Source: Bradyrhizobium elkanii WSM2783
GTDB taxonomy: Bacteria; Pseudomonadota; Alphaproteobacteria; Rhizobiales; Xanthobacteraceae
Length of the DNA stretch: 64,000 bases
NCBI RefSeq assembly: GCF_000472865.1
Contig: NZ_AXAP01000021.1
Span: 21,054 to 85,053, forward strand
Reading direction: 5' to 3'
Shown: positions 2,791 to 54,400 of the stretch, in pieces
Position numbering within the stretch: the stretch's first letter is position 1
How the letters are laid out: each line of letters begins with the position of its first letter
The notes under the pieces: model-generated
The model's input: only the letters and a program-made list of their open reading frames with translations
What the model was told of the DNA's origin: nothing
Databases searched by the model: none
Made by a program: the position numbers and the translations under genes

Positions 2791-2844
2791 GATGAGAATC
2801 TGACGAACGACGGATTTCGGGCGCAGTGCGCCCAGCGGTCACGT

Positions 2845-4872: not shown

Positions 4873-5051
4873 GAACTTTGTCTTGGTCTTGGGCCGGCCA
4901 AGGCCGTGCTTGCCTGATCCCGCTTCGCTGGTCACGGTGATGACGGCGCGGCTTGCAACGCGACAAATTGGGGGACAGATTGGGCGCGTTCGAACAGATC
5001 GGCGAAATCGCCGTGCTGCTGGTCCCGCATCATTCAGAACCGTGAGCCCTG
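4873..5051 (+). other. Gap before bluB with a possible 3' gene fragment
   Basis: From about 4946 to 5043 one frame reads LQRDKLGDRLGAFEQIGEIAVLLVPHHSEP and then stops. This looks like the tail of a real protein without a body, possibly a decayed neighbour. I see none of the conserved blocks of a cobalamin riboswitch here. Confidence 0.25.
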
Positions 5052-5684: not shown

Positions 5685-5718
5685 TCCATTGCGCCGAAGA
5701 AATCCGGTCCAGACGTTC

Positions 5719-6651: not shown

Positions 6652-6745
6652 TGCTTCCCTCCACATTTTTTGTGCCTATCCCTTGAAATCAGCGGCTCCG
6701 GGAGGCGGATAGACGATCATTTCGTTATCCTCCCGGAGGAGCTCT

Positions 6746-8592: not shown

Positions 8593-8677
8593 GGTTGGCC
8601 TCGCTCAGACATGCTGGTTGACCAGCGATTCCAGATATTGACACCTGATCTTCGCGTCGAATGGGACCGGTCCGTCG

Positions 8678-11442: not shown

Positions 11443-11515
11443 CGTATCATGTCCTGCAGTGGAACCGAGCTGTCGTCCGGCAAGCGGGCCTTCTGCGCTT
11501 GCCGGACCAGTTTGC

Positions 11516-12586: not shown

Positions 12587-12652
12587 ATTTTCACTCCCGT
12601 TGGGTTAGGAACGTTTCTGTCGTTGCAGTGAGGATTTGGGCGGGACTATCTC

Positions 12653-14625: not shown

Positions 14626-14833
14626 GGCTCAGTCTTCGAACGCTTCGACGATCCGGCGCATGCCCATAACCCGCCTGCGATGTGGCGGCCGCATTTTCAA
14701 TGGTCGCAGCGCCGGTGAGCAGTGCGGCAGCGATCTGCCGGCTTTTCTCCTCTCGGCATGCCCGCATACGGGCATGCACACACCTTTCGCGTCAGAGTAG
14801 CTCAATGTTTGACCCGAACGGGCTACCGTCGCA

Positions 14834-24857: not shown

Positions 24858-24920
24858 CCCTTATTGTGAGGTCACACCGGCAACCCGGTACAGGCACGGG
24901 CGCCGTGGACCCGAGCAATG

Positions 24921-25288
24921 CTATTTGATCGTCGCGTGCACAGTGATTACCGAGCCGTCGGCCCCTGTCCCACTGCTTTGATGGCAAAGTTATCGCTCCC
25001 CTTGTACCTAGCCTTCGCTTTGTATTCGTAAGTCGTCATGTTGAGCTTTTTCAAGCTGCCATGTGCCGGCTTTTGTAAGATGTCCGAGCTGCTCACCGTG
25101 CCGCGTATCGTAATCGGAAATAGGCAACTTTCTCCTGAGCTGACGCTAACGTCGCCGGTCGAATTCTCGCCCCAATCCGCTACTTCCAGTAATCTGGGAC
25201 AGTCAGAAGCGGCTATCGCTGGAGACGCGGACATGGAGCCTGCAGCTCCAGCGATAAGCATCAAAACAGCGACTCTAGACAACCGCAT
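24921..25288 (-). pseudogene. Small exported protein with Ig-like/Big-type tail, frameshifted
   Basis: From ATG 25288: a signal peptide (MRLSRVAVLMLIAGAAGSMSASPAIA), then a short domain with two cysteines (SDCPRLLE and ESCLFPI) and the sequence KPAHGSLKKLNMTTYEYKAKARYKGSDNFAIKAVGQGPTAR, which resembles a Big/cadherin-like beta-sandwich strand set. The frame stops at 24947. Inserting one base near 24955-24960 gives SVITVHATIK and a stop at 24921, the ending expected for this kind of domain. So a one-base deletion appears to have altered only the last about 12 residues. The product may still be made and exported. Function unknown. Confidence 0.6.
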
Positions 25289-25405
25289 CGTAGACTTCCT
25301 CGTTTTGCGTCGATGGCGGTATTGTCGGACGTCCAAGAAAACTTGGCTATCACAGACGCATCAACGATCCTGCCGGGCCGGTTGAAAGCGGCACCTGCGA
25401 ACATC

Positions 25406-25816
25406 TCACGAGGCGCGCGTCGCGGCACGCTCTCGTTCAATGCGCTCGGTCACGTCTCGCGCCACGGCAACCGAGCCAAGCACTTCGCCAGCGGCGCTGT
25501 CCTTGACGATCGCGAATGTCATCTCAACGTAGACCTTGCGTCCGCTCTTGTGCAAGGCGCGGGTCAGCGTGGGCTTGCCTTGAAGCTTCATGGCGCCGCC
25601 AGTCATTGCCGCCTCAAAGCCGCGCCAATGCGCGGCCCGCAGATGCTCGGGGATGATCAGATCGAGGCTTTGGCCGAGCACCTCCTCCAACGAATAGCCA
25701 AACAATGCGGCGGCGGCGGGATTCCAGCGGGCAATCGCGCCGGAGCGATCGGCGTAGATCACCGCATCGGCCGTTTGATCGAGAATTCTTTCCGCTAACT
25801 CGGAGCGCTCTTCCAT
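25406..25816 (-). CDS. Single-PAS-domain sensory protein
   Basis: A 136-residue protein with one PAS domain and nothing else. It reads LAERILDQTADAVIYADRSGAIARWNPAAAALFGYSLEEVLGQSLDLIIPEHLRAAHWRGF (about 6-66), the canonical PAS N-terminal half, and VEMTFAIVKDSAAGEVLGSVAVARDVTERIERE, the closing beta-sheet and exit helix. No kinase, cyclase or DNA-binding output is attached, so it may act by binding a partner. I use ATG 25816, which has AGGTG six bases upstream; an upstream extension looks unrelated. No operon partner is visible. Confidence 0.8.
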   Translation of the reverse strand: MEERSELAERILDQTADAVIYADRSGAIARWNPAAAALFGYSLEEVLGQSLDLIIPEHLRAAHWRGFEAAMTGGAMKLQGKPTLTRALHKSGRKVYVEMTFAIVKDSAAGEVLGSVAVARDVTERIERERAATRAS

Positions 25817-26109
25817 GGGGCACCTGTTTGGTTCTGTCACGTCTAACCTTTCTGCGCAACAATGTAGACCGCGCTCAAGTTCCGCTGATAGCGCTCGAAC
25901 ACCTCCCACATCGCAAGAACCCGCATATGGCATGATGGTCACGGCTTTGCCGACATTCACCGAAACGCAGCCGCGGACCTTAAGTTGCCCATATTGCCCC
26001 ACATGTCAGGATAGATACCGACGTTATTGCCGCCGATGCTGGTGCAGTCGAAGGTCTTTTCGATCAACCGACTCACAGGTCAGATCGCCGTCCGAGCGAC
26101 CGCGGCGGA
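25817..26109. other. Gap between the PAS gene and livF, no clear gene
   Basis: A minus-strand 39-codon frame starting at a GTG near 26077 reads EKTFDCTSIGGNNVGIYPD and then MWGNMGNLRSAAAF before stopping. It might be a scrap of a lost protein, but I do not recognise it and see no ribosome-binding site. Otherwise nothing is seen in these 293 bases. Confidence 0.25.
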
Positions 26110-26814
26110 TCAGCCGCCGAGATAGGCCTTTCGCACATGCTCGTTCGCGATCAGCTCCGCGCCGACGCCGGACAGCACGATGCGACCGCTCTCGATGAGG
26201 TAGGCCTGATCGCACATCTCAAGCGCAGCAAAGGCGTTTTGCTCCACCAATAAGACTGTCGTGCCGGCATCGCGGATGCCGCGGATGATGGCGAACGTGC
26301 GCTCGACAATATTCGGCGCGAGCCCAAGCGACGGCTCGTCAAACATGATGAGGCGAGGCCGCGACATCAGCGCCCTGCCGATCGCCAGCATCTGTTGCTC
26401 GCCGCCCGACAGGGTACCTGCCGCCTGCCGCCTCCGCTCCGCAAGACGCGGAAACTCAGTGAAGATGCGGTCACGGTCCGCGGCGATTCCGCTCGGGTCG
26501 CTACGCAGATAGGCGCCCATGTCAAGATTTTCCTCGACAGTCATGTGCGGAAACACGCGCCTTCCCTCCGGGCAATGCGCGATACCGCTCGCCAGCACGC
26601 GCGGCGGTCGCGCCGCGGTCATATCCTTGCCGTCGAAGAGCATCTGTCCGGAACGCAACGGTACCAATCCGGAAATCGCGCGCAGCGTCGTGCTTTTGCC
26701 GGCGCCATTGGCGCCGATCAGAGCGACGAGCTGCCCGGCCTTCACCTGCAGCGAGATGCCCCGCAGCGCGGTAACGCCGCCATAGCCGCAGACGATATCG
26801 CGGATCTCAAGCAC
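26110..26814 (-). CDS. livF: Branched-chain-type ABC transporter ATP-binding protein LivF
   Basis: A 234-residue ATPase of the LivF (HAAT) family: Walker A GANGAGKST, signature LSGGEQQMLAIGRAL and Walker B LIMFDEPSLGLAPNIVE. The GTG at 26814 (reading VLEIRDIVCGYGGVTAL) is chosen because it overlaps the stop of livG (GTGCTTGA) and has GGGAGC upstream. It is the last gene of the nine-gene minus-strand run that begins with the amidohydrolase. Liv-type importers carry branched-chain amino acids but also amides, urea, aromatic acids and other compounds, so the substrate should be judged from the catabolic genes upstream. Confidence 0.92.
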   Translation of the reverse strand: MLEIRDIVCGYGGVTALRGISLQVKAGQLVALIGANGAGKSTTLRAISGLVPLRSGQMLFDGKDMTAARPPRVLASGIAHCPEGRRVFPHMTVEENLDMGAYLRSDPSGIAADRDRIFTEFPRLAERRRQAAGTLSGGEQQMLAIGRALMSRPRLIMFDEPSLGLAPNIVERTFAIIRGIRDAGTTVLLVEQNAFAALEMCDQAYLIESGRIVLSGVGAELIANEHVRKAYLGG

Positions 26815-27589
26815 GCGCGGCTCCCTGCCCGAGATAGGCTTCGATAACGTCAGGATCGTTCCGGATCGCATCCGGCGGTCCTTCCGCGATGATCCGGCCG
26901 TAGTTCAACACCACGATCCGATCCGACACGCTCATCACCATCGGCATGTCATGCTCGACCAGAAGGATGGTGACGCCGCGGTCGCGGATATTGCGGATGA
27001 GTTCGACAAACGTGTGCGTCTCTGACGCATTCATGCCGGAGACCGGCTCATCGAGCAGCAGCATCGACGGCTCCGCGGCCAGCGCCAGCGCCACGCCGAC
27101 GAGGCGCTGCTCGCCATAGGACAGCGAACCTGCGGGGTCGTGGGCGCGACGCTCGAGCCCGACCCATTCGACGAGTTCGGCGGCGCGCTCGCGCAGCCGG
27201 CGCTCCGACGCGCGTCCGCGCGGCAGCCCAAGAATCGCTTCGAACAGGCCAACCCGGCCCTGGCGGTGCAGCCCGATCAGAAGATTGTCGTAAACCGTGT
27301 CGTTCGGGAAAACACTGGTCCGCTGAAAGGTGCGGATCAATCCGAGATCAGCGATCTGATGCGGCTTCAGTCCGTTCAGTGTGGCCCCGCGATAACTCAC
27401 CTTGCCGTGGGCTGGATCCAGAAAGCCGGTCATGACGTTGAACGCGGTGGTCTTGCCGGCGCCGTTCGGGCCGATCAGGCTGACGATCTCGCCCTCGCCT
27501 ACCGTAAAGTTCATATCCGAGAGCGCGACGAGCCCGCCGAAGCGAACGGCGACCTGCTCCACGTCCAAGGCGATCGCACGCGAGGTCAC
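26807..27589 (-). CDS. livG: Branched-chain-type ABC transporter ATP-binding protein LivG
   Basis: A 260-residue ATPase with Walker A GPNGAGKTT, signature LSYGEQRLVGVALAL, Walker B MLLLDEPVSGMNASE and the LivG C-terminal GRIIAEGPPDAIRNDPDVIEAYLG, which is a family trademark. Start at GTG 27589, eight bases after AAGGAG. It touches the livM stop by one base (TAGTG). It pairs with LivF to power the LivH/LivM channel encoded just upstream. Confidence 0.92.
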   Translation of the reverse strand: MTSRAIALDVEQVAVRFGGLVALSDMNFTVGEGEIVSLIGPNGAGKTTAFNVMTGFLDPAHGKVSYRGATLNGLKPHQIADLGLIRTFQRTSVFPNDTVYDNLLIGLHRQGRVGLFEAILGLPRGRASERRLRERAAELVEWVGLERRAHDPAGSLSYGEQRLVGVALALAAEPSMLLLDEPVSGMNASETHTFVELIRNIRDRGVTILLVEHDMPMVMSVSDRIVVLNYGRIIAEGPPDAIRNDPDVIEAYLGQGAARA

Positions 27590-28632
27590 TACGCAGGCTC
27601 CTTGGCACGTTCGGAAAAGGCAACCGGAGCAACCGTTGCGGCTTGGCGCTTCCGTTTCGCGAACCGCTGCGCCAATGAAGGTACGATGCCGCGCGGCAGT
27701 ACGAAGAGGATCACGATCAGCACGCCCCCATAGGCGATCCATTGAGCTTCCGGCGCCATGATCGGACGCAGGACGACCGGCAGCAATCCGAAGATCAGGC
27801 CGCCGACGACCGGTCCGGCCAGTGAGCCCTTGCCGCCGCTGATGACCATGATCACCATCGTCACCGTGTTGATGAAAGCGAACACCTCGGGATCGATGAT
27901 CCGGATGTAGTGCGCATAAAGGCTACCGGCCGCGCCCGCGATAGCAGCCGAGATGACCGCGGCGAGCGTAAGCGTCTTCGTGACGTCGATCCCGACCGAC
28001 ACCGCCAGCGTTTCGTTTTCCATCAGCCCGCGCATGGCGCGGCCAAAATGGGAGTGCACGAGCCGCGCGATCAGGAGATAGGCGACGACTGCGACCGCGA
28101 GCACGAGATAATAGTTCTGCAGCTTGGTGCGCAGCGTCAGTTCACCGAGACCCGGCAAGCCAATCGCGATCGACGGGATATTGGTTAGCGCCAGCGGCCC
28201 CTGCGTCAGCTCGACCCAGTTCAGCGCCACCAGCCGCACGACCTCGGCGAAGGAAATCGTGACGATCACGAAATAAGCGCCGCGGACGCGGAAGGAAAGC
28301 AACCCGACGAAATAGCCGCACAATCCCGCGACCAGGATCGCCAGCGCAAGCCCCGCAATCGGCGGCCATGGTTCGTGAACCAGGCGGAAGCCGCCGGGCA
28401 GGCCGATATCGAAGCCGAGCGAGGTCAGCGCGCTGACATAGGCGCCGATGCCGAAGAAAGCGATGTGACCGAGGCTGAGCTGGCCGGTGAAACCGAGCAG
28501 GAGATTGAGGCTCATTGCGGCGATGATGAAGATTCCGGTCGTGATCAGCGCGTTCAGGAGATAAGGATCGCGCAGCCAGAGCGGCACGGATGCGATGGCC
28601 GCGAGCGCAAGGATGGTGATCGCTGCCCTCAT
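27589..28632 (-). CDS. livM: Branched-chain-type ABC transporter permease LivM
   Basis: A 347-residue inner-membrane permease with about nine or ten hydrophobic segments. LNLLLGFTGQLSLGHIAFFGIGAYVSAL (about 43-70) is the LivM signature, and GRAMRGLMENETLAVSVGIDV is the ATPase-coupling loop. The ATG at 28632 overlaps the livH stop by four bases (ATGA). A longer frame upstream lies antisense to nothing useful and overlaps livH, so I reject it. Forms the channel with LivH. Confidence 0.92.
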   Translation of the reverse strand: MRAAITILALAAIASVPLWLRDPYLLNALITTGIFIIAAMSLNLLLGFTGQLSLGHIAFFGIGAYVSALTSLGFDIGLPGGFRLVHEPWPPIAGLALAILVAGLCGYFVGLLSFRVRGAYFVIVTISFAEVVRLVALNWVELTQGPLALTNIPSIAIGLPGLGELTLRTKLQNYYLVLAVAVVAYLLIARLVHSHFGRAMRGLMENETLAVSVGIDVTKTLTLAAVISAAIAGAAGSLYAHYIRIIDPEVFAFINTVTMVIMVISGGKGSLAGPVVGGLIFGLLPVVLRPIMAPEAQWIAYGGVLIVILFVLPRGIVPSLAQRFAKRKRQAATVAPVAFSERAKEPA

Positions 28633-29501
28633 CCCACGCGCTCCGAACGCGCGAACAAACCGGTGGGCTTGAAGATCAGCACCGCGATGATGATCAGGAA
28701 GCCCATCGCGTCCCGATATCCCGACGATATGTAGCCGGCGCCCAGCTCCTCGGCCAATGCCAGGATGAAGCCGCCGATCACCGCGCCAGTGATGTTGCCG
28801 AGACCGCCGAGGATCACGATCGCGAAGGCCTTGACCGCGGCAAGATCGCCCATCTGCGGAAAGATCACATAGACCGGGCCGAGTAGCGCGCCGGCCGCAG
28901 CGGCCAGGCTCGAGCCGATCGCAAAGGTCGAGGTATAGATGAGATCGACATTGACCCCCATCAGCGACGCGGTGTCCTGATCCTGGAACGTCGCGCGCAT
29001 CGCGCAGCCGAGCTTGGTACGGTTGATGAGCAGGTACGTCACCACGATCAGAAGCGCTGCGGCCGCCAGGACAAACAGCCGCAGCCAGGAGACGGAGACA
29101 GGCCCCAAGACAAGCGGCGCTTCCGGAAACGGTGTCGCGACCGATTTCGCGACCCCACCCCAGATCCACAGCGTGGCCGACTGCATCGCGATCCAGGCGC
29201 CGATCATCACCAGCATGGTGGTGTCGATATCGGAGCCACGCAGCGGCCGCAGCAAGGTCAGCTCAATCACCGCACCCAGGAGCCACCCCGCCACGACGGC
29301 GACGGGCAGCGCGAGGAAGAAGTTGAGCCCAAGCTGCTGAACCACGATGAACATGATGTAGGCGCCGAACGTGTAGAGCACGCCATGCGTAAAGTTCACC
29401 ACGTTCATGATGCCGAAGATCAAGGTCAGCCCGATCCCCAGCAGCGCGTAGGTGCCGCCGAGGACGAGCATGTTGATCAGATGTTGCAGAAACTCGCTCA
29501 A
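28629..29501 (-). CDS. livH: Branched-chain-type ABC transporter permease LivH
   Basis: A 290-residue inner-membrane permease. YALLGIGLTLIFGIMNVVNFTHGVLYTFGAY (about 19-49) is the LivH signature. INRTKLGCAMRATFQDQDTASLMGVNVD is the coupling loop. The start is a TTG at 29501 with GGAG seven to eight bases before it, as seen in other GC-rich genomes. It lies 68 bases after the binding-protein gene on the same strand and is coupled to livM. Confidence 0.92.
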   Translation of the reverse strand: MSEFLQHLINMLVLGGTYALLGIGLTLIFGIMNVVNFTHGVLYTFGAYIMFIVVQQLGLNFFLALPVAVVAGWLLGAVIELTLLRPLRGSDIDTTMLVMIGAWIAMQSATLWIWGGVAKSVATPFPEAPLVLGPVSVSWLRLFVLAAAALLIVVTYLLINRTKLGCAMRATFQDQDTASLMGVNVDLIYTSTFAIGSSLAAAAGALLGPVYVIFPQMGDLAAVKAFAIVILGGLGNITGAVIGGFILALAEELGAGYISSGYRDAMGFLIIIAVLIFKPTGLFARSERVG

Positions 29502-29569
29502 GGCGGCTCCGGGCTATCCTGTTGCGGGCGAGGACCGCAGCGCGGCCCTCGTCGATAGATGACGCGAGA

Positions 29570-30724
29570 TCAGAGAGTCTTCATGTCGACCTTGCCGTCG
29601 CTGATCTCGATCAGGTAGACGTTCGGCTGGCTCTGGCCGCTCTCCTTGCCTTCCGGACCGGACTTGCGGAACACGATATCGCCGTTCAAGCCCTTCACCT
29701 TGATGTCCCACAGCGCCGCCTTGATGGCCGCGGGCTCCGCCTTGCCCGCCTTCTCGATCGCAGCTGCCGCAGTACGGATGCCGTCATAGCCGCGGAAACT
29801 CTCGGTGCAGCCGGCAAAGTCGAAGCCGCGCTTCTTCCATTCCGACACGAAATAATTGGTCGCTTCCGGATTCGGCGTCTTCTCAGGGAACCAGGGCAGG
29901 AAAGTCGTCAGGTGCATGGTGCCGTTGGCCGCGGCGCCCGCCTGCGCGATGATCTGATCCGGATTTTGCGAGCCGCCGGTGGTGATGATGCGCTTCTTGA
30001 GGCCCAGCGCCGCCGCCTGTTTGAAGATCAGAGTGAGTTGGTCGACCGCGGTCGTGACGATCACGGTCTCGGAGTCCGAGCCTTTGATCTTGGAGAGCTG
30101 CGCGCTCATGTCCTGCGCGCCTTGGTCCATGGTCTCGACCAGACCGATGCCGATCCCCTTCTCCTTCATCATCTTGGCGAAATCGTCCGCCGTGCCGCGG
30201 CCCCAGTCGTTGTTGATGACGAGGAAATCGACCTTCTTCAATGCGAGCTTGTCGACGATGCCCTTGAAGGCGGCCGCTTCGACCGACGAGGGCGGCGAGA
30301 TACGGAAGATGAAGGGATTTCCGGTGGTGGTGATCTTGCTGGACGACGACGTCTCGACGACCATCGGCGTCTCGTACTCGATCAGCTTCGGCATCACCGC
30401 GAGCGTCAGGCTCGAGCCCCAGGCGCCTATGAGCACCGGCACCTTATCGCTGGTGATCAGCTTCTCGGCGACGGCGGCAGCTTCGGTCGGATTGCTCTTG
30501 TTGTCCTCGATGACAAGCTCGATCTTCTTGCCGAGAATGCCGCCCTTGGCGTTGATCTCGTCGGCGGCGATCTTGGCGCCGTTGACAACATAAGTGCCGG
30601 ACGCGGCGAACGCGCCGGTGAGCGGTTCGTTCACGCCGATCTTAATGGTTTGCGCCTCGGCCCCGCCCCCGAGCAAAGCGGTCGCCAGCGCAATTGCCGG
30701 AACAATCCAGGAAGTCCTAATCAT
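29570..30724 (-). CDS. ABC transporter substrate-binding protein, Liv/amide type
   Basis: A 384-residue periplasmic binding protein of the Peripla_BP_6 group. A signal peptide (MIRTSWIVPAIALATALLGGGAEA) is followed by IKIGVNEPLTGAFAASGTYVVNGAKIAADEINAKGGILGKKIELVIEDNKSNP, the standard LivK-like opening. Start at ATG 30724, five bases after GGAGAG; 27 upstream codons are rejected. It ends 77 bases after the CoxS-CoxG fusion stop. Being encoded between a molybdenum hydroxylase and LivHMGF suggests that it binds the compound or product handled by that hydroxylase, not necessarily an amino acid. Confidence 0.9.
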   Translation of the reverse strand: MIRTSWIVPAIALATALLGGGAEAQTIKIGVNEPLTGAFAASGTYVVNGAKIAADEINAKGGILGKKIELVIEDNKSNPTEAAAVAEKLITSDKVPVLIGAWGSSLTLAVMPKLIEYETPMVVETSSSSKITTTGNPFIFRISPPSSVEAAAFKGIVDKLALKKVDFLVINNDWGRGTADDFAKMMKEKGIGIGLVETMDQGAQDMSAQLSKIKGSDSETVIVTTAVDQLTLIFKQAAALGLKKRIITTGGSQNPDQIIAQAGAAANGTMHLTTFLPWFPEKTPNPEATNYFVSEWKKRGFDFAGCTESFRGYDGIRTAAAAIEKAGKAEPAAIKAALWDIKVKGLNGDIVFRKSGPEGKESGQSQPNVYLIEISDGKVDMKTL

Positions 30725-30801
30725 GTAGCTCTCCAATTGCTCTGTTGATCTCCGCGCAGTCCCAACCTCGCCGCCCCGCGATATGGGGAGACGCCGAAAC
30801 A

Positions 30802-32007
30802 TCATGCCGCTCCGTCTCGTCTGACGAAGCGACCCAACCAGCGCGCGATGCGCGCGCGAAAAACACCTGAAATCATCGAAAATCCCTTCAGCTCCTTCGC
30901 GGTTGCCTGCTCGGGCGAGGCCCCCGACATGCGGCGATCGAGATTGGCGGCAAATTCCGCGATCAGCCGCTCGGCGAGGTCGCGCACCAATCCCGGCCGC
31001 CCGACCTGCGCCAGCATTCCCGTCAGCGTGTATCCGATCAAGAGATCGACGCGCGTCGCCGCGCCCTCCTCGATCGGCGCCAGCTGGTACCGGATTTCGC
31101 CCTGGGTCGCCGATCGGCTGCGCCGATCGTTGCCGATGCCGATGATGCGACCGGAGAGATTTTTCGGTTCGCGCTCGATGCGGGCCGAGCCCAGGAATGT
31201 CGCAGCGATCGGACCAAGCTTGACGCGGATGGCGCCTTCAACCCGTTCAGGGCTCGGGACCGCCGTCAACGACGCGCCTGGCAGGCAGGCCGCGACGGCG
31301 GCGATGTCATCGAACATCGCAAAGACATCCTTCGGCGGGTACGGGAGCGTGAAGTCCCGTTCGAGCCGGTTGGCCGGGGTGAAGTCAGGAATCTCGGCCG
31401 GCGATGCCACCGTCTCGGATGCATAGGTGGGTTCAGTTTGGATTGGCTGCGGGACCTGGATCGCACCGTCTCGCCCACTTCGCCCGGAGCCCGCTGGCCC
31501 CAAGACCTTGCGGCCGCCGTCCGGCTCGGGTGCGATGCTGCGGGCACGCCGCGCCTCGATCACGGACTGCACCGCGCGCACGATGCCGACGTACCCGGTG
31601 CAGCGGCAGAGATTGCCGCTCAGGCCGACGCGAATCTGGCGCTCATCGGCCGCGGTCAGGCGCAGGACAAGGTCGCGCGCGGAGACCAGCATGCCCGGCG
31701 TGCAATAGCCACACTGCAGCGCGTGCTCGCGCGTAAAGGCGGCGCGGAGCTCGGTCGTGATGTCATCCTCATCGAGGCCCTCGATCGTGGTGACATCGGC
31801 ACCCTCGCAAGCCACCGCATAAGTGATGCAGGAGCGCGCCGGCACACCGTCGAGCAGCACCGTGCAGGCGCCGCAGACGCCATGCTCGCAACCGAGATGC
31901 GTACCGGTCAAATCAAGCTTGTCGCGAACGAAATCGGCCAGACTCGTGCGCGGCTCCGCCTCAGCCTGTACCACACGTCGGTTGACGTTAAGCGCAATCA
32001 TGTTCAT
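30802..32007 (-). CDS. Fused 2Fe-2S subunit (CoxS-like) and CoxG-like SRPBCC domain of a molybdenum hydroxylase
   Basis: A 401-residue two-part protein. Residues 1-155 form the small iron-sulfur subunit of xanthine-oxidase-family enzymes: plant-type cluster Cys40, 45, 48 and 60, and second cluster Cys99, 102, 134 and 136 (QCGYCTPGM, NLCRCTGY). A flexible Pro/Gly/Ser-rich linker (about 156-212) leads to a CoxG-type SRPBCC domain (about 213-365: FTLPYPPKDVFAMFDDIAAVAACLPGA, then the conserved G...V..GPI..TF.G.A). CoxG in CO dehydrogenase operons is a separate protein thought to help membrane recruitment. It overlaps the FAD-subunit gene by four bases. The C-terminal basic tail (GVFRARIARWLGRFVRRD) may touch membrane. 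This is the electron-transfer unit of the hydroxylase. Confidence 0.9.
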   Translation of the reverse strand: MNMIALNVNRRVVQAEAEPRTSLADFVRDKLDLTGTHLGCEHGVCGACTVLLDGVPARSCITYAVACEGADVTTIEGLDEDDITTELRAAFTREHALQCGYCTPGMLVSARDLVLRLTAADERQIRVGLSGNLCRCTGYVGIVRAVQSVIEARRARSIAPEPDGGRKVLGPAGSGRSGRDGAIQVPQPIQTEPTYASETVASPAEIPDFTPANRLERDFTLPYPPKDVFAMFDDIAAVAACLPGASLTAVPSPERVEGAIRVKLGPIAATFLGSARIEREPKNLSGRIIGIGNDRRSRSATQGEIRYQLAPIEEGAATRVDLLIGYTLTGMLAQVGRPGLVRDLAERLIAEFAANLDRRMSGASPEQATAKELKGFSMISGVFRARIARWLGRFVRRDGAA

Positions 32008-32840
32008 GCGGCCGCCTCACGGACGGCCAGCCTGAGCACGCTCACATGGATATGTCGGTCGGCCGGATTGCCGATGCCAGCCTTGGCGAGAAGACCGTCG
32101 GCGACGCGCACGTCAAAACGTTCCTTGTAGTCGCCGGCGACGCGGCCACCGAACAGTTCCGCGGCATCCGTGATCACGATGGGTGCGGTGTCGATCGCGC
32201 CCATCACCACGCGCGCCGTCGCGGCGCTCGGATCGATCAGCACCGCGCTAAGCGCATGCGCGAACTCGCCGGTCTTGCGGCAGCTCTTGACATAGCCCCA
32301 ATGCGCCGATGGCGCCCGCGCCGGAACATGGATGGTCGCGACGATCTCGCCGGGACGCAATGCCGATTCAAGCGCTCCAAGAATGAAATCTTCCATTGCG
32401 ACCGTACGCGCACCCGCGAGGCTGCGCAGCGTGAGCCGCGCGCCGAAAGCCGCAAGCGCCGACACCCAGTCCGCGGCCGGATCGGCATGGCTGAGCGAGC
32501 CGCCGATCGTGCCGCGGTTGCGCACGGCGCGATAGGCAATGTTGGCGGCGACGCCCTGCATGGCGCCACGCGTCACATCCGGCGTTCGTCCATCCTCGAT
32601 ATCGGCGTGCGTGATGCAGGCCCCGAGCACAAGCTCGTCGCCATGTCGCTCCACCTGCTTGAGTTCGGCGAGGCCGGTGATGTCGACGACAAGTTCCGGC
32701 TGAACCAGCCGCAGGTTCAGCATCGGACCGAGCGACTGCCCGCCGGCGATGATCTTCGCCGACCCGTTGGCTTCGGCCAACAGCGCAAGCGCCGCCGGCA
32801 GATCGCGTGGACGCTCATAGCTGAAAGGCGCGGGTTTCAT
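32004..32840 (-). CDS. FAD-binding medium subunit of a molybdenum hydroxylase (CoxM-like)
   Basis: A 278-residue subunit of the CO-dehydrogenase/xanthine-oxidase FAD family. It starts PFSYERPRDLPAALALLAEANGSAKIIAGGQSLGPMLNLRL, with AGGQSLGPMLNLR being the FAD-binding loop. AYRAVRNRGTIGGSLSHADPAADW (about 106-129) is the second FAD motif. Length is close to CoxM (about 280-290). Overlaps coxL-like and coxS-like genes by four bases on both sides, so the three are translated as one unit. Electrons from the Mo site pass through 2Fe-2S clusters to this FAD. Confidence 0.92.
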   Translation of the reverse strand: MKPAPFSYERPRDLPAALALLAEANGSAKIIAGGQSLGPMLNLRLVQPELVVDITGLAELKQVERHGDELVLGACITHADIEDGRTPDVTRGAMQGVAANIAYRAVRNRGTIGGSLSHADPAADWVSALAAFGARLTLRSLAGARTVAMEDFILGALESALRPGEIVATIHVPARAPSAHWGYVKSCRKTGEFAHALSAVLIDPSAATARVVMGAIDTAPIVITDAAELFGGRVAGDYKERFDVRVADGLLAKAGIGNPADRHIHVSVLRLAVREAAA

Positions 32841-35221
32841 GCCGCCGTCCTTTCTGCATCGCGAGCGGCGAGGATGGCCTCGACGATGCGGTGAGGCGTG
32901 ATCGGCGATTGCATCATCTCGACACCAAGCGGTCTCAGCGCATCGTTGACGGCATTGGCGATCGCGGCCGGTGGTGCGATCGCGCCGCCCTCGCCGATGC
33001 CCTTCACCCCGAATTGCGTATAGGGCGACGGCGTCTCCATGTGGTCGAGACGCGGCGCGGGCACTTCGGTCGGTCCGGGCAGGAGATAGTCGGCGAGCGT
33101 CGTCGCGAGCGGCTGGCCGGATCCGTCGAACGGCATCTCCTCGTAGAGCGCGGTGCCGACGCCCTGCGCGAGGCCGCCATAGATCTGGCCGTCCACGACC
33201 ATCGGATTGACCAGCACGCCGCCATCCTCGACGATGACATAGTCGAGGATTTCGACTTCGCCCAAATCGGGGTCAACAGCGACGACGACTGCATGCGCTG
33301 CATAGCTGAAGGTGCCGCTGTCACGCTGCGGCTTGTAGCCGGCGGTGACCTCAAGCCCGCCGGGATCGACATCGGCAGGCAGGTCCTGCGGGCGGCGATA
33401 CCAGGTGTAGGCGATCTCCTTCAATGTCACGCTGCCGTTGACGCCGCGCACCTCGCCGTTCTGCAGCACCACCGATGCCGGGTCGTGCTGCAACAGCTTG
33501 GCGCCGATGCGCCTGGCGCGCTCGCCGAGTTCGCGGCACGCGGTGGCGACTGCGCCACCCGCCATCACCATCGAACGCGAGCCCCAGGTGCCCGTCGAAT
33601 AGGGCGTCATCGCGGTGTCGCCAAGGATGATGCGCACGCTTCCGACATCGACGCCGAGCATCTCGTGGGCGACCTGGGCAAGCGTCGTCTCCATGCTCTG
33701 CCCGTGCGAATGCACGCCGACGCGCAGTTCGAGACCACCGTCGGGCGTCAGCCGTGCCGATGCCTGCTCGTGGCCCGGCACCATCGGAATGCCCCAGCCG
33801 GCATAGACCGAAGTGCCGTGTGCCGCCTGCTCGCAATAGATGGAGACGCCGATGCCGATCCGCCGTCCATCAGGCTCTCCCGCGCGCTGGCGTTCGCGCA
33901 CCGCATCGATATCGATCGCCGCCAGAGCCCGCCGCATCGCCTCGGGATAATCGCCGCTGTCGAAGTGTTTCTTGGTGATGTTGTCGTATGGCATCTGCTC
34001 CGGTTGGATCAGATTGCGCAGCCGCACTTCGCCGGGCTCGAGGCTCGCCTCCGCCGCAACCAGATCGAGCATCAGTTCCAGCGCAAAGCAGACCCCGGTG
34101 CGCGCGACGCCACGATAGGGCAGGATCGGGCACTTGTTGGTCGCGACCGAAAAGGTTCGGCAGCGATAGGCCGGCATCAGGTAGGGACCGGGCAGGATGC
34201 TTGCGACCTGCGCTGCCTCGAGGCATGCCGAGAACGGATAGGACGAGTAGGCACCGGAATCGACCGTCGCCTCGCAATCGATGCCGCGCAGCGTTCCGTC
34301 ACTGTTGGCATAGACCGTGATCTTGTAGTGGTGCTCCCGGCAGTTTGAGCTGGCGGTGAGATGTTCGCGGCGATCCTCCGTCCAGCGCACCGGATGGCCA
34401 CAGCGCATGGTCAGCCAGGAGAGGCAGACTTCCTCGGGAAGCAGAATTCCCTTGTGGCCGAAGCCGCCGCCGACGTCGGGGGAGATCAGGCGAATCCTTC
34501 CCTCCTCCATGCCGAGGCATTCGGCGAGGCCGCTGCGGGTGACATGCGGCATCTGAGCAGCGGAATAGAGCGTGAGCTGATCGAGCCGGTGATCGAAAGT
34601 GGCGACCACACCGCGCCCTTCGAGCGGCGACATGCATTGTCGTGCGGTCGATATCTCGCGCGTCACCTTGATCGGTGCATCCAGCGCTGCTGAGATGTCG
34701 ACCTCATAATTGGTCTCGAGGAAGACGTTGTCTCCCCAGTGCTCGTGCACCAGCGCCGCACCAGGCTCGCGCGCCTTCAGCATGTCGTAGACCGCGGGAA
34801 GCTCTTCGAGATCGAGCGTGACAGAAGCCGCGATATCCTCGGCTTCGGCACGCGTCGGCGCCACGCACATCGCGACGAGTTCGCCGACCTGACGGACCTT
34901 GCCGGTGGCGAGCACCGGTTGTTCGGAAATCTTGAAGCCCGGCAGCGCCGACACCGCGCGGATCGGCTTGACACCGACGAGATTGGCGGCGGTGAAGACT
35001 TTTCCACGATAACGTTCGGGCACATGGATGCCGCTGATCCGCGCGTGGGCCAGCGGGCTGCGCACGAACGCAACATCCTGCAGGCCGGCGAGACGAATGT
35101 CGGCCACGAACTGGCCGCGGCCACGCATCAGCCGATCGTCCTCCTTGCGCGGCAGCCGAGCGCCAACGCCCTGCCCGGTGCCGGCCCCTGGTGCGGAGGA
35201 AAAGTCACGCTCGTTGCGCAT
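32837..35221 (-). CDS. Molybdopterin-binding large subunit of a xanthine-dehydrogenase-family hydroxylase
   Basis: A 794-residue Mo subunit. GGGFGHKG (about 251-258) and the C-terminal GEGG, with likely catalytic glutamate E744, mark the molybdenum site. At 368-374 the active-site loop reads PYRGVAR. Form I CO dehydrogenases have AYxCSFR there, while form II and other hydroxylases have AYRGAGR-like loops, so this is not a CO oxidiser by that criterion. It should insert an oxygen from water into an electron-poor carbon, for example in a purine, pyridine or aldehyde. It starts 33 bases after the amidohydrolase stop on the same strand and overlaps coxM by four bases. Confidence 0.92.
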   Translation of the reverse strand: MRNERDFSSAPGAGTGQGVGARLPRKEDDRLMRGRGQFVADIRLAGLQDVAFVRSPLAHARISGIHVPERYRGKVFTAANLVGVKPIRAVSALPGFKISEQPVLATGKVRQVGELVAMCVAPTRAEAEDIAASVTLDLEELPAVYDMLKAREPGAALVHEHWGDNVFLETNYEVDISAALDAPIKVTREISTARQCMSPLEGRGVVATFDHRLDQLTLYSAAQMPHVTRSGLAECLGMEEGRIRLISPDVGGGFGHKGILLPEEVCLSWLTMRCGHPVRWTEDRREHLTASSNCREHHYKITVYANSDGTLRGIDCEATVDSGAYSSYPFSACLEAAQVASILPGPYLMPAYRCRTFSVATNKCPILPYRGVARTGVCFALELMLDLVAAEASLEPGEVRLRNLIQPEQMPYDNITKKHFDSGDYPEAMRRALAAIDIDAVRERQRAGEPDGRRIGIGVSIYCEQAAHGTSVYAGWGIPMVPGHEQASARLTPDGGLELRVGVHSHGQSMETTLAQVAHEMLGVDVGSVRIILGDTAMTPYSTGTWGSRSMVMAGGAVATACRELGERARRIGAKLLQHDPASVVLQNGEVRGVNGSVTLKEIAYTWYRRPQDLPADVDPGGLEVTAGYKPQRDSGTFSYAAHAVVVAVDPDLGEVEILDYVIVEDGGVLVNPMVVDGQIYGGLAQGVGTALYEEMPFDGSGQPLATTLADYLLPGPTEVPAPRLDHMETPSPYTQFGVKGIGEGGAIAPPAAIANAVNDALRPLGVEMMQSPITPHRIVEAILAARDAERTAA

Positions 35222-35254
35222 GGTGGCGTCCCCGATCGGACTGCTACGGCCTCC

Positions 35255-36532
35255 CTATGCCGCGACCGCTTGCGGCAGGATCGGCGCGACCGCGTCGTAG
35301 CGCGTGCCAGCACGCAAACAGAACGTCGGCTGCAGTAGCCGTTCGGCAATGACTTCAGTCTTCTCGTTGTCGCGAAGGACAAATCGCCCGGTGTGCTCCG
35401 TGAGCACCGAGACATCGGCATCCCTGCCGACTTTGAGCGCGCCGATCTCCTCATCACGGCCAAGCATCTTCGCCGGATTGGAGGTGACCATCGGCACCAC
35501 CTGCTCGAGCGAAAGCCCGAGCGCCATCATCGAACTCATCGCCTGCACCAGGCTGAACTTTGCCTGGCCGGCGAACGGATGATTTTCTTCATCCTCGTGC
35601 TGTTCCGGTGTACCGGCCGGCGCGGGCACATGGGTGTTGTAGCCGTGGATGTCGGCGCCGAGCGTGGTCGGAACGATTCCAGCGGCAATCGCCTTCTTGG
35701 CAAGCCGGTAGGAGAAATGGCTGCCGTGACCGACATCGACCTTGAGGCCGCGGTCGAGCGCTGCCTGGATCACCGGATGCACCTCGCCCTCGCGGTTGAC
35801 AAAGCCGCCGGGATGGCGCGTGAACGGATGCGCCAGGATATCCCCTTCGCGCAACAGCGGGATCACACGCGTCAGGATCGTGTCGGCATCCTCGCCGTTG
35901 GCGCCGCTTTCAGGCAGCCCCCAGAGCTGGCCGAAGTGAACGTAGACCGGCAGATCCGCGCGGCGACCGATCTCCGCCGACATTTCGATGACACGGATAC
36001 CCCAGCGGGCAAAACCGCCGATCTCGGCATGCGCCTTGATGCCGCGAACGATGTCACGATTGGCTATCGCCGCCTTCACCGTGGCGCCGATATCGACACC
36101 CTCGGGGCTATAGAGCTGCGGATAGTAATGTCCTTCGAGCCCGCCAACGAGGTAGGCCGACAGGAACGCATAGACGCGCGACTTCGCAGATTCGGCGATG
36201 AAGTGGCGAAAGCCCGGAAGCGTCATGCAGGATGGACCGCCCTGATCGACCAGCGTTGTGACGCCCGACTGCACTCCGACCATGTCGGCATTCATGCCGA
36301 AACGTCCGGTGACATATTGATAGACATGCGCGTGCGTATCGATCAGTCCCGGCAACACCAGCTTGCCGGCGACGTCGATCACTTCCCTCGCGCTGGTTGG
36401 CAGGATATCCGCCTGCACCGCCGCGATCTTGCCGTTGCGAATGGCAACATCCCGGATGCTATCAAGGCCGGAGGACGGACAGATGACGCGGCCGCCACGC
36501 AAAAGCAGGTCGAAGCTGGCGCTGATGGACAT
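35255..36532 (-). CDS. Amidohydrolase-superfamily deacetylase/metallohydrolase (cog3964-like)
   Basis: A 425-residue zinc hydrolase. Metal ligands seen: H67 and H69 in DTHAHVYQ, probably carboxylated K166 in GIKAHAE, H199 in VYVHFG, H235 in LAHPF, and D294 in LGADIHGYN, with the usual beta-sandwich start LLLRGGRVICPSSG. Close relatives are named amidohydrolase/deacetylase; characterised cog3964 members cleave acyl esters or amides of small molecules, so the substrate cannot be read off. Start at ATG 36532, seven bases after AAGGAG. It is the first gene of the minus-strand run, and a perfect 24-bp palindrome lies about 50 bases before its start. It probably opens or deacylates an intermediate next to the hydroxylase step. 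Confidence 0.85.
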   Translation of the reverse strand: MSISASFDLLLRGGRVICPSSGLDSIRDVAIRNGKIAAVQADILPTSAREVIDVAGKLVLPGLIDTHAHVYQYVTGRFGMNADMVGVQSGVTTLVDQGGPSCMTLPGFRHFIAESAKSRVYAFLSAYLVGGLEGHYYPQLYSPEGVDIGATVKAAIANRDIVRGIKAHAEIGGFARWGIRVIEMSAEIGRRADLPVYVHFGQLWGLPESGANGEDADTILTRVIPLLREGDILAHPFTRHPGGFVNREGEVHPVIQAALDRGLKVDVGHGSHFSYRLAKKAIAAGIVPTTLGADIHGYNTHVPAPAGTPEQHEDEENHPFAGQAKFSLVQAMSSMMALGLSLEQVVPMVTSNPAKMLGRDEEIGALKVGRDADVSVLTEHTGRFVLRDNEKTEVIAERLLQPTFCLRAGTRYDAVAPILPQAVAA

Positions 36533-36580
36533 GAACGTTCTCCTTAAGCTCTCGCCGGCGGGTTGGTCCCGCTCTCGCGG

Positions 36581-36604
36581 AAATACGAAGCATGCTTCGT
36601 ATTT
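36581..36604. promoter_or_regulatory. 24-bp perfect palindrome, putative MarR operator 1
   Basis: A perfect 24-bp palindrome with core TACGAAGC-AT-GCTTCGTA and A/T flanks lies in the divergent gap between the amidohydrolase start (36532, minus) and the MarR gene (36697, plus). The same 8+2+8 core recurs before the NCS1 permease. A site of this size and symmetry in this position is what a MarR dimer uses, and it could control both the catabolic operon and the regulator itself. Confidence 0.75.
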
Positions 36605-36696
36605 TCCAAAAAGCAAGCTTCATGCCATGATCTGGTGATGGCGCGTGCATCCGAATCGGGCTAGTCGCGCCACGTTCCAAGGCTGGAGACTGTGCG

Positions 36697-37191
36697 TTGC
36701 AGCAAGCGAAGATCCGTCGTGGTGAGATCAGACATCGCCCTTGGCCGTTGTCACAAAGACCTGGGTTCCTGATCCGGCGCCTGCATCAGATCCACGTCGC
36801 GCTGTTCCAGGAAGCGTGCGGCGAATTCGAAATAACGCCACTGCAATACAGCCTGCTTTCGGCGTTGGCGGTGCGAGGAACCGCCGATCAGACCACGTTG
36901 GCGGGCGATATCGCGTTGGATCGGACCACGACGACCGGCGCGCTGAAGCGGCTCGCTGCCCGCAATCTGGTCGAACGGGCCGTCAACAAGGACGACCGAC
37001 GCGCTCGGCTCTGCCGGTTGACATCGGCCGGAACGGCCCTGCTCTCCCGGATCGAGGCGTCGGCGCGGGCCGCCCATCGCGCCACTCTTGCCGGCTTGAC
37101 AGAGAAGGAACGCGGCTTGTTCATCGAAATGATGCAACGTATCGTTGCAGGCAACGCCAGTCGCGACAGCGCGACTGCCCTTTTCGACTAG
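36697..37191 (+). CDS. MarR-family transcriptional regulator
   Basis: A 164-residue winged-helix regulator. It shows FLIRRLHQIHVALFQEACGEFEITPLQYSLLSALAV (about 25-60), the dimer/helix entry, then DQTTLAGDIALDRTTTTGALKRLAARNLVERAVNKDDRRARLCRLTSAGTALL, with recognition helix and the DxRxxx wing typical of MarR. Start is TTG at 36697, six bases after GGAGAC. It lies between two operons that share the palindrome and is divergent from the amidohydrolase. MarR proteins usually repress and are released by a small aromatic ligand. The 37192-37466 gap behind it shows no gene. Confidence 0.9.
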   Translation: MQQAKIRRGEIRHRPWPLSQRPGFLIRRLHQIHVALFQEACGEFEITPLQYSLLSALAVRGTADQTTLAGDIALDRTTTTGALKRLAARNLVERAVNKDDRRARLCRLTSAGTALLSRIEASARAAHRATLAGLTEKERGLFIEMMQRIVAGNASRDSATALFD

Positions 37192-37466
37192 ATGGAACAC
37201 GAGCCGCTGGCTGTCTTTTTGGCGCGGGCTGCACAATCCGTGATCGCACGCTCGCAATTGCGGTCCCGGCTCTGCTGACGCCCGGACTAGCATGACCAAG
37301 CGATGCAACAGCCGGCCTGCACGTCGACATCGACCAAGAGCGATGCCGTCTCGGCCTTGAAAAGACAGCGTCAATTCTTCGAACCACCCGCCGCGTCGGC
37401 GCGCGAGCAGCAGGCTTCGCGGCTACACCCTACTTCCATGGCACGATTGTTGCTGCGTCCGCCGAT

Positions 37467-37484
37467 TACGAAGCGTGCTTCGTA
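37467..37484. promoter_or_regulatory. Putative MarR operator 2
   Basis: TACGAAGC-GT-GCTTCGTA: the same 8-bp arms as operator 1, with a two-base centre GT instead of AT. It ends 16 bases before the ATG of the NCS1 permease, so binding here would block transcription or initiation. Confidence 0.75.
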
Positions 37485-37500
37485 TTGAACGGGGGATGTC

Positions 37501-38919
37501 ATGACGGATTCCGAGCTTCGCGCCGATATTCATAGCATCGAGCCTATTCCTGATGCTGACCGGGACTCCACCGGACCGCAGCAAATGTGGATCTGGGCAG
37601 GCGCCAATATCGCGCCGGTCAACTGGGCCCTCGGCGCGCTTGGCATCATCCTGAAGCTCGGCCTTATGGAAACGATCGCGGTGATCGTGATCGGCAACAT
37701 CATCGGCTGCGCGATCTTTGCGTCCTTCACCGTGATGGGCCACAGGACCGGCGTCAACCAAATGGTCTTGAGCCGTTCGGCCTTCGGCGTTCGCGGCGCC
37801 TATCTGCCGAGCATCCTGATGTTCCTGATGACGCTGTGCTGGATCGGCGTGAACACCTACTTCCCCGTGAAGATCGCAGTCGCCATCCTTGGTCAGTTCG
37901 GCATTCCCGACACCTGGCTGGTCGAGATCATCATCATCACGCTGGTGATGGTGCTTCAGGTCGGGATCGGCGTGTACGGCTTCTACGCGATCCGGACCTT
38001 CGAGAAGTACACGGTGCCAGCGACGGTTGCCATCATGATCCTGATGAGCGTGCTGGCGTGGTCGCGCCCGGGCGTCGTCAACTGGGGCCTCACCACGTCC
38101 CTTTCGGGTGGCGCGCATCTGGCGATGCTGACGCTGCTGATGACAGCGATCGGCGTCGGCTGGGGCATCTCCTGGGTCACCTGGGCTTCGGACTATTCGC
38201 GCTTCGTGCCGAAGAGCGTGCCCTCGAGCTCCGTGTTCTGGTACAGCTATGTCGGCATGTTCGTCCCGAGCGTGTGGCTCGCCATCCTGGGCGCGACGAT
38301 CGCCAGCACGACACTGGATACCGATCCGGCCAAGATGGTCAGCGCGGTGTTCGGCGGTCCGACCAGCATCCTGGTGCTGCTGATGGTGCTGCACGGACCG
38401 ATCGCGACCAATATCCTCAATGTCTATTCGGCTGCGCTCGCCGCGCTTAGCGCAGGCTTCAGGCTCTCGCGCGTCGCGCTAGCGATCATCGTCGGCATCG
38501 CCGGCTATCTGGTCACGCTCTACTTCATCTTCGCACCGTCCTTTGCGAAGGCATTCGACAACTGGATGATCAGCCTGTTGTTGTGGATGAGCCCGTGGGC
38601 CGGTGTCGTGCTCGCCGACTTCTACATCAAGCGAAAGGGCCAGATCGACGTCGCCGAACTCTACCGCTCGCCGGAAACCAGCGCCTATGGCGATATCAAT
38701 TGGGGCGGAATCATCGCCTTCCTGGCAGGTCTCGTTGCAGGCTGGTCGGTCGAAGACGGCCTCGTCAGCGCGTTGCAGGGACCAATCTCGACGGGTCTGC
38801 TCGGCGGCGCCGATCTCAGCTGGCTCTTTGGCATCGGCGTATCGGCTGCGGTATATCTGGCGGTCGGCAAGCGGGCGACCGCCACAACGCCTGTTGCCGC
38901 GACCAGCGCGAGCCAGTGA
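37501..38919 (+). CDS. NCS1-family permease (purine/pyrimidine/allantoin/hydantoin type)
   Basis: A 472-residue inner-membrane transporter of the nucleobase:cation symporter-1 family with about twelve hydrophobic segments. WIWAGANIAPVNWALGALGIILKLGL (about 30-55) is the conserved first helix, with the N and W typical of the family. FTVMGHRTGVNQMVLSRSAFGVRGAYLP and SDYSRFVPKSVPSSSVFWYSYVG (about 230-252) are also diagnostic. GGGGGA lies five bases before the ATG. NCS1 proteins carry cytosine, uracil, purines, allantoin, hydantoins, thiamine or pyridine compounds by proton or sodium symport. The shared operator links it with the molybdenum hydroxylase operon. Confidence 0.92.
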   Translation: MTDSELRADIHSIEPIPDADRDSTGPQQMWIWAGANIAPVNWALGALGIILKLGLMETIAVIVIGNIIGCAIFASFTVMGHRTGVNQMVLSRSAFGVRGAYLPSILMFLMTLCWIGVNTYFPVKIAVAILGQFGIPDTWLVEIIIITLVMVLQVGIGVYGFYAIRTFEKYTVPATVAIMILMSVLAWSRPGVVNWGLTTSLSGGAHLAMLTLLMTAIGVGWGISWVTWASDYSRFVPKSVPSSSVFWYSYVGMFVPSVWLAILGATIASTTLDTDPAKMVSAVFGGPTSILVLLMVLHGPIATNILNVYSAALAALSAGFRLSRVALAIIVGIAGYLVTLYFIFAPSFAKAFDNWMISLLLWMSPWAGVVLADFYIKRKGQIDVAELYRSPETSAYGDINWGGIIAFLAGLVAGWSVEDGLVSALQGPISTGLLGGADLSWLFGIGVSAAVYLAVGKRATATTPVAATSASQ

Positions 38920-53094: not shown

Positions 53095-53128
53095 CGAGCC
53101 AACGAACAATGGGGAGGGAGAAAACAAG

Positions 53129-54364: not shown

Positions 54365-54400
54365 CGGCAGCCTCGTGACCATTCGCGGAAGAGAATCGTC

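Follow-up and report, generated by a model that had tools for sequence, protein, structure and literature searches.

The locus considered here raises the question of which compound it serves to degrade. It lies in a 64,000-nt stretch of the Bradyrhizobium elkanii WSM2783 genome (NZ_AXAP01000021.1), the whole of which is called the window, and joins a COG3964-type amidohydrolase (AH), a molybdenum (Mo) hydroxylase and a Liv-type ATP-binding cassette (ABC) importer in one operon, opposite a MarR-family regulator and a permease of the nucleobase:cation-symporter family (NCS1). Our answer, a tentative one, is a catabolic regulon under MarR control whose substrate would be a cyclic guanidine or cyclic ureide, with the creatinine/hydantoin class the most likely. 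The nine operon genes ran on the minus strand from 36532 to 26110 without a single internal stop, ending in a solute-binding protein (SBP) gene and four liv genes, and the MarR and NCS1 genes diverged from them on the plus strand. The features are as follows.

35255 to 36532, minus strand: AH, COG3964-type amidohydrolase (PRK09237 family), 425 aa, first gene of the operon (NCBIfam NF006689)
32837 to 35221, minus strand: coxL, molybdopterin subunit of a xanthine-oxidase-family hydroxylase, 794 aa (Pfam MoCoBD_1 and MoCoBD_2)
32004 to 32840, minus strand: coxM, FAD subunit, 278 aa (NF041019, 181 bits, under the cut-off of 350)
30802 to 32007, minus strand: coxSG, 2Fe-2S subunit fused to a CoxG domain, 401 aa (Pfam Fer2, Fer2_2 and COXG, over cut-off)
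29570 to 30724, minus strand: Liv-type SBP, start taken at the signal-peptide ATG 30724 (Pfam Peripla_BP_6, 219 bits)
28629 to 29501, minus strand: livH permease (TIGR03409 and NF008011, under cut-off)
27589 to 28689, minus strand: livM permease, start approximate (UrtC and LivM models, under cut-off)
26807 to 27742, minus strand: livG ATPase, 5' end of the open reading frame (ORF) probably too long (NF008449, 268.5 bits, match from residue 58)
26110 to 26871, minus strand: livF ATPase, last operon gene here (NF008626, 259.5 bits)
36581 to 36604, unstranded: operator 1, perfect palindrome of 24 nt, AAATACGAAGCATGCTTCGTATTT, in the divergent AH/MarR promoter
36697 to 37191, plus strand: MarR-family regulator (Pfam MarR, 42.7 bits against a cut-off of 24.6)
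37467 to 37484, unstranded: operator 2, TACGAAGCGTGCTTCGTA, just 5' of NCS1, a copy of the operator 1 sequence
37501 to 38919, plus strand: NCS1 permease, 472 aa (Pfam Transp_cyt_pur, 171 bits against 23.5)

The strongest evidence for a common system was the operator. The sequence TACGAAGCRYGCTTCGTA occurred in two exact copies, one in the AH/MarR promoter and one 16 nt 5' of the NCS1 start, and these were the sole sites in the whole genome at up to two mismatches. A reversed-pattern control at the same tolerance gave three matches per strand in the same genome, and about 0.001 exact matches were expected from the base composition of the window. Therefore, only the exactness of the two copies exceeded chance, as near-matches were not rarer than in the control. 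We propose that MarR may bind the palindrome.

The arrangement was widely conserved. AH at no less than 83% identity was present in 57 of 146 genomes of the genus, the own genome included, among the matches listed; the remaining listed matches were paralogues (ca. 33-38%). In broader draws, which include genomes of the same genus, it was found in 24 of 397 genomes of the order and 11 of 398 of the phylum (both at an E value of 1e-75), and in 19 of 385 of the class (1e-90). The comparison covered 124 loci in which AH was at least 44% identical, some genomes being represented twice (such as by L110 and L122) and several loci by short contigs; L118 (43.8%) fell below the threshold. A coxL gene of at least 55% identity shared the stretch with AH in 113 of the 124. 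Among 80 named loci, the operator (up to two mismatches) stood by AH in 72 and MarR was matched in 78, lying 7 kb from AH in L107. The loci lacking an AH-side site at this tolerance were L050, L086, L098, L106, L107, L109, L110 and L111, of which L106 begins inside AH, and L086 and L098 keep an intact 14-nt core. Where NCS1 directly followed MarR, a site preceded it in 38 of 40 loci (exceptions L076 and L092). The exact shared operators, these site counts and the presence of coxL near AH supported a single regulon.

These data bear on the simplest alternative, in which ordinary transport and oxidation operons merely adjoin one another and share no pathway. NCS1, the Liv importer and the downstream genes do differ between lineages, and in others a PAAT importer belongs to the regulon. 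Against this stand the exact operator, unique in the genome at up to two mismatches, and the conserved gene order, overlaps and co-occurrence, and we regard mere adjacency as very improbable; unrelated adjoining transcripts were rejected on the shared operator and the conservation.

What the first-pass annotation of this DNA had observed was confirmed by the analysis, and its interpretation was supported in part. Its tightly spaced and overlapping nine-gene run was confirmed, with intact ORFs, 4-nt overlaps between coxL and coxM and between coxM and coxSG, and, with the chosen starts, gaps of 33 nt (AH-coxL), 77 nt (coxSG-SBP) and 68 nt (SBP-livH). The liv ORFs also overlapped, by lengths that are upper bounds, since the starts of livM, livG and livF were not fixed. 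The start of AH was set at ATG 36532, near the point where many homologue matches begin, because the listed 453-aa ORF begins inside the promoter and runs through the operator. The shared operator claimed for NCS1 proved real, and the MarR gene between AH and NCS1 is an addition to the earlier gene list. A break-up of the run into unrelated transcripts, which that annotation had named as fatal to its proposal, does not appear to occur, as the neighborhood comparison it had called for across Bradyrhizobium showed gene order, operator and co-occurrence kept in many genomes.

The assignments of a COG3964-type hydrolase, a complete Mo hydroxylase and a complete ABC importer were borne out as well. 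AH scored 441.6 bits against NF006689 (cut-off 371). Amidohydrolase-superfamily enzymes are metal-dependent hydrolases, and His67, His69, Lys166, His199, His235 and Asp294 of AH, which we take to be the binuclear metal ligands (HxH, carboxylated Lys, two His and Asp), did not vary among 18 aligned sequences, those other than AH being 45-92% identical to it. AH could be aligned with the solved structures 8wzy, 2ogj, 2ics and 8je0. It shares its family and aligned metal-ligand motifs with the COG3964-type enzymes 8wzy and 2ogj (the latter presumably Atu3266), but similarity to them was low (138 and 129 bits), and both are deposited as "dihydroorotase". The structure predicted for AH by AlphaFold was of poor quality (mean pLDDT 62.9, nine sequences). 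AH is proposed to be a ring-opening cyclic amidohydrolase.

The hydroxylase encodes Mo, FAD and 2Fe-2S parts and has the MoCo domains, catalytic Glu, and 2Fe-2S and FAD partners of the xanthine-oxidase family, whose Mo hydroxylases oxidize C-H bonds adjacent to a ring nitrogen. The best solved relative of coxL was quinoline 2-oxidoreductase (470 bits), with which the Glu of its GVKGIGE motif was aligned. An aerobic carbon monoxide dehydrogenase (CODH), which is marked by the active-site Cys of the AYxCSFR loop, was rejected: coxL reads PYRGVAR where 8uem has AYACSFR, so the Cys-bearing loop is missing, and it also fell under the CODH cut-offs. The 2Fe-2S/CoxG fusion of the window is replaced in Caballeronia and Azospirillum by separate adjoining (2Fe-2S)-binding and SRPBCC genes. 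The Liv/HAAT importer comprises an SBP, two permeases (LivH and LivM) and two ATPases (LivG and LivF). Besides its Transp_cyt_pur match, NCS1 reached 151 bits with TIGR00800 and 106 bits with CytX, both under cut-off.

We infer the following reactions from these genes. NCS1 and the Liv system would import a cyclic guanidine or ureide, and the Mo hydroxylase (coxLMSG) would hydroxylate the ring carbon next to a ring nitrogen, in the case of creatinine yielding a parabanate-like dioxo ring. Because oxidation beside the nitrogen would make the ring imide-like and AH keeps its metal-ligand pattern, AH could open the ring by hydrolyzing its amide to a linear acyl-guanidine or acyl-urea. Later enzymes found beside AH in relatives, not in the window (an alpha/beta hydrolase; HpxZ, amidase and AllG-family proteins; UAAP1 and UAAP2), may then split this product, releasing its nitrogen in guanidine- or urea-type form together with a small dicarboxylic acid.

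The genes for such last steps vary. An alpha/beta hydrolase occurred in 33 of the 124 loci and an AllG-family gene in 16, never both together, an exclusion that is suggestive only, as it follows lineages and stretch ends hide some of the hydrolases. In 17 downstream stretches of genus members, a convergent alpha/beta hydrolase was present in 12 and a Rieske ferredoxin in 14; L153 and L155, which are close to the window in AH identity, retain the Rieske gene alone, and neither the window, where no match to either was found, nor its near relative L154 has them. Directly past livF, the window carries a PAS protein gene and a luciferase-like gene (23829-26002), which lie ca. 15 kb further on in L154; this difference in position suggested a rearrangement after livF.

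The nature of the substrate was indicated by relatives, which add UAAP1/2 genes and guanidine-I riboswitches, a cytosine/creatinine-deaminase-family gene, and HpxZ, AllG-family and amidase genes, pointing to a cyclic guanidine or ureide. In nine variant loci (L086, L090, L093, L095, L096, L098, L100, L102 and L105), the position after MarR was taken by an operon for an NfsA-like nitroreductase, SBP3, PAAT permeases, an ATPase, RidA and DUF1989 proteins, families identified on L093. UAAP1 and UAAP2 were matched in all of these but L095, with NCBIfam scores in L093 of 252 bits (cut-off 206) and 309 bits (cut-off 285), respectively. An operator-like site preceded the variant operon in all nine, with zero to one mismatch to the 14-nt core in L090, L093, L095, L100 and L105, two in L096 and L102, and three in L086 and L098. 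Between this site and the first operon gene, a guanidine-I riboswitch (RF00442, 74-80 bits, gathering score 63) was present in L086, L090, L093, L096 and L098, so that in L090 and L093 an exact operator core stands 5' of a riboswitch-bearing operon. As the NCS1 orthologue (85-86%) is located behind coxSG in L096 and L098, it appears to travel with the operon.

A 2020 paper by Schneider reportedly bears a title to the effect that proteins annotated for urea metabolism are carboxyguanidine deiminases; these are, we assume, UAAP1/2. The guanidine carboxylase pathway (gca, cgdAB, atzF; PMC12508155) resembles our regulon in the UAAP1/2 genes and guanidine-I riboswitches of the sister operons with an operator-like site, and in having an ABC importer. 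The accessible part of that source describes the pathway without a Mo hydroxylase or ring-opening amidohydrolase, and the window differs in turn by having neither a UAAP pair (no tblastn match to UAAP1/UAAP2, CgdA/B) nor a riboswitch.

Chelatococcus provided a second line of evidence, and one that also serves a rival reading. L110 is Chelatococcus sambhunathii, and L120 and L125 were taken to be of the same genus. In L120 and L125, a GMC oxidoreductase, an aldehyde dehydrogenase, NCS1 (73-74%) and a PRK07572 cytosine-deaminase-type gene (800 and 798 bits, cut-off 438; 362 bits to solved cytosine deaminases) lie near MarR and AH, and the operator core by AH is kept. L120, a stretch without coxL, combines AH, an alpha/beta hydrolase, NCS1 (73%), the CodA-type deaminase, UAAP1 and UAAP2 (both over cut-off) and a urea-type carboxylase (TIGR02712, 1824 bits), along with a guanidine-I riboswitch at 6154-6261 (87.5 bits), bringing the relatives with this riboswitch to six overall. 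No riboswitch was matched by Rfam in L107, L125 or L217. In the window, no cytosine-deaminase-family gene lies beside NCS1, and the relatives of that gene in the own genome were all below cut-off.

CrnT of Corynebacterium glutamicum is presumably an NCS1 protein, and CodA of the same species presumably belongs to the cytosine-deaminase family. According to the available portion of PMC8864220, CrnT and CodA serve creatinine transport and degradation there, a pairing of permease and CodA-type enzyme resembled by the NCS1 and deaminase genes of the two Chelatococcus loci; the N-methylhydantoin formed is a dead end or passes to sarcosine via HyuB and CshA, and that portion describes the route without a Mo hydroxylase. 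A "cytosine permease" was also reported from shared plasmid regions of metformin degraders, in what is accessible of PMC9800807. In Azoarcus, an NCS1 homologue (40-43%) adjoins a creatininase. Our first choice of the creatinine/hydantoin class was based on the acyl-urea and guanidine enzymes of relatives, CrnT-CodA, this creatininase neighbor and the metformin-degrader permease. A narrower proposition, that soil bacteria carry creatinine or another cyclic guanidine oxidatively to guanidine or methylguanidine via the Mo hydroxylase and the COG3964 amidohydrolase, is rather doubtful.

The same deaminase genes could indicate oxidative pyrimidine catabolism. NCS1 would then import cytosine, uracil or thymine, the Mo hydroxylase would act as a uracil/thymine dehydrogenase forming barbiturate, and AH would be a non-AtzD barbiturase yielding ureidomalonate and, from it, malonate and urea. 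The logic is a known one: in the part of PMC3758960 at hand, pyrimidines pass through barbiturate to malonate and urea by barbiturase and ureidomalonase, and ring oxidation, amide ring opening and acyl-urea splitting succeed one another as in our scheme. The cytosine-deaminase-family gene adjoins the NCS1 orthologue in the two Chelatococcus loci; the NCS1 of the window is closer to the CytX and CodB models than to allantoin permease (106, 77 and 29 bits); and a PRK06031 phosphoribosyltransferase is encoded in nine AH-bearing stretches (L134-L136 and L182-L187; 46-100%, cut-off checked in L182, L183 and L185). Cytosine-deaminase-family enzymes can, though, act on creatinine, as the accessible text of PMC8864220 describes for CodA, and pyrimidine catabolism leaves the guanidine riboswitches and UAAP pairs unexplained.

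The known barbiturase is moreover of the AtzD family, while AH is COG3964-type with the metal-ligand pattern of the amidohydrolase superfamily. No AtzD-family barbiturase gene is in the window cluster; the genome has a single AtzD-family gene, which lies on a different contig (C137, 70500-90300; L212, 5232-10039) and there directly follows coxM-, coxS- and coxL-like genes, the last 36% identical to the window coxL. The barbiturase role may therefore be taken, with the caveat that NCBIfam calls this protein a cyanuric acid hydrolase, so that its role may be a different one. In the phylum draw, an AtzD gene occurred in 7 of 11 AH-bearing and 7 of 387 other genomes, a contrast confounded by relatedness and, in ten stretches, formed by separate loci, and not used as proof. 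RutA exceeded its cut-off in only 2 of 146 genus genomes, both carrying AH, which has no bearing on complementarity with Rut. Overall, we consider a pyrimidine substrate unlikely.

Returning to the cyclic guanidine or ureide regulon, further lineages suggested an oxalurate-like product. Caballeronia L114 joins AH, coxL, coxM, coxS and SRPBCC genes to an AllG-family (DUF1116) gene, HpxZ, an amidase, PhyH and a PAAT importer; Azospirillum ramasamyi L172 has AH, a GGT-family gene, Liv genes, coxLMS, SRPBCC, an amidase, HpxZ, MarR and DUF1116; and in L191, AH is accompanied by an amidase and AtzH-like and AllG-like genes. HpxZ of L114 scored 185 bits (cut-off 135), and the amidases matched PRK08310 over cut-off. 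Such a product would fit, because HpxZ, PRK08310-type amidase and AllG-family genes stand beside AH and coxL in Caballeronia and Azospirillum, recalling the Hpx/All oxalurate branches (AllFGH, PMC11326118) in L114 and L172 and, beside AH, in L191. The branch differs in that E. coli oxalurate derives from allantoin and AllG acts with AllF and AllH, according to the available portion of PMC11326118. Tblastn found no HpxZ, amidase or AllG-family gene in the window, and Rfam found nothing in L114, L115, L117, L172, L182 or L133, or in a further set of stretches. The PhyH of L114 recalls the 2-oxoglutarate dioxygenase that hydroxylates methylguanidine in Vreelandella (PMC12508155), which is only a lead, as the accessible part of that source does not name its family as PhyH.

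Other neighborhoods allow for a different heterocycle or amide, such as a pyridine-type ring, cyclic imide or pterin, with which the guanidine, urea and oxalurate genes of relatives would share only a regulator or region. Distant coxL homologues (48-54%) in Aminobacter and Variovorax occur with pyridine/nicotine-type genes, a nic-type cluster lies near AH in Azospirillum L116, and NCS1 homologues (46-48%) in Rhizobium, Nocardia and Phyllobacterium accompany amidase, polysaccharide-deacetylase and DUF1989 genes. The coxL homologues found with pyridine-type genes show less similarity than those linked to AH, similar neighbors recur across several families, and in L090 and L093 it is the exact operator core that precedes the riboswitch-bearing operon. 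We judge such a substrate possible but not probable. The NCS1 homologues just mentioned (L224, L225 and L226) form part of a recurring cluster with the amidase, the polysaccharide deacetylase, a urea-carboxylase-associated (DUF1989-type) gene and an oxidoreductase, for which we know of no pathway name.

Several observations weigh against a cyclic guanidine or ureide. All guanidine evidence comes from relatives and none from the window; Rfam searches of the window and of four more stretches of the own genome gave no match, a result for these stretches only, and the own genome has one divergent DUF1989 gene, 29% like one variant gene. The window lacks the alpha/beta hydrolase that would be expected to act last, and the nearest homologue in the own genome reaches 43%. 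Riboswitch scores were below threshold in L095, L100, L102 and L105, a lax search of the first three was also empty, and L107 has one UAAP2-like gene (48%) and no riboswitch. The operator sites of L086 and L098 are weak, because three-mismatch matches occur elsewhere in L100 and L102 too. Searches for a relative of the L120 carboxylase were empty both in the variant loci and in six additional stretches, four of which (L232, L235, L236 and L237) extend the contigs of L086, L098, L096 and L105. The NCS1-CodA pairing occurred in only two Chelatococcus loci, out of ten AH-bearing genomes of that genus, is accompanied there by the GMC and aldehyde dehydrogenase genes, and has no operator core before NCS1; the deaminase, NCS1 and the phosphoribosyltransferases can be accounted for by a uracil route as well. 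AllF and AllH were not among the annotated neighbors of AllG in L114, L115, L117 and L172. Sinorhizobium meliloti pSymA keeps coxLMSG (74-75%) without AH in a 28-kb stretch, and Sinorhizobium was absent among 19 plasmid records with AH, chromosomes not being searched. A distant AH (47%) in L188 lies among nucleobase-type genes, so a nucleobase role is conceivable; this locus (2018-16166) comprises the AH relative, an AtzD-family gene, a Mo hydroxylase, an NCS2 xanthine permease, allantoicase and a PuuE-UraD fusion.

In relation to the first-pass annotation, one catabolic unit with two importers and one operator, probably for an N-heterocycle, was supported by the shared exact operator, conserved order and co-occurrence. 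Its open choice of "N-heterocycle or amide" could be kept for the N-heterocycle, as probable, and narrowed to a cyclic guanidine or ureide by the genes of relatives. The argument from two importers to a scarce substrate was weak, as NCS1 and Liv vary between lineages and PAAT substitutes in others. That no named pathway has this exact set was borne out within the open-licence literature, which lacks most subscription papers and in which we found no description of the cluster, its operator or the link to guanidine riboswitches. Every part belongs to a known family.

If the creatinine/cyclic-guanidine route holds, it would provide a biological origin in nature for the guanidine sensed by guanidine riboswitches, and in some species would be coupled directly to an operon under riboswitch control. 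A regulon in which the oxidation and opening of a ring are linked to UAAP genes and guanidine-I riboswitches would open one answer to direct testing. It would also assign a function to genes that many bacteria from soil or associated with plants carry under the generic names "amidohydrolase/deacetylase family" and "xanthine dehydrogenase family".

Two further clusters were observed. On the plus strand of the window, 49690-55471 holds a second Liv-type importer cluster, with LivH-, LivM-, LivG- and LivF-like genes and two SBP-like genes. On S. meliloti pSymA (L166, 1281-20146), the coxLMSG relative without AH (coxL 74%) is surrounded by cofD, cofC, an F420-dependent LLM oxidoreductase, an ArgE/DapE deacylase, NAD(P) transhydrogenase genes, an SBP and diaminopropionate ammonia-lyase, and is possibly an F420-dependent heterocycle pathway on a symbiotic plasmid.

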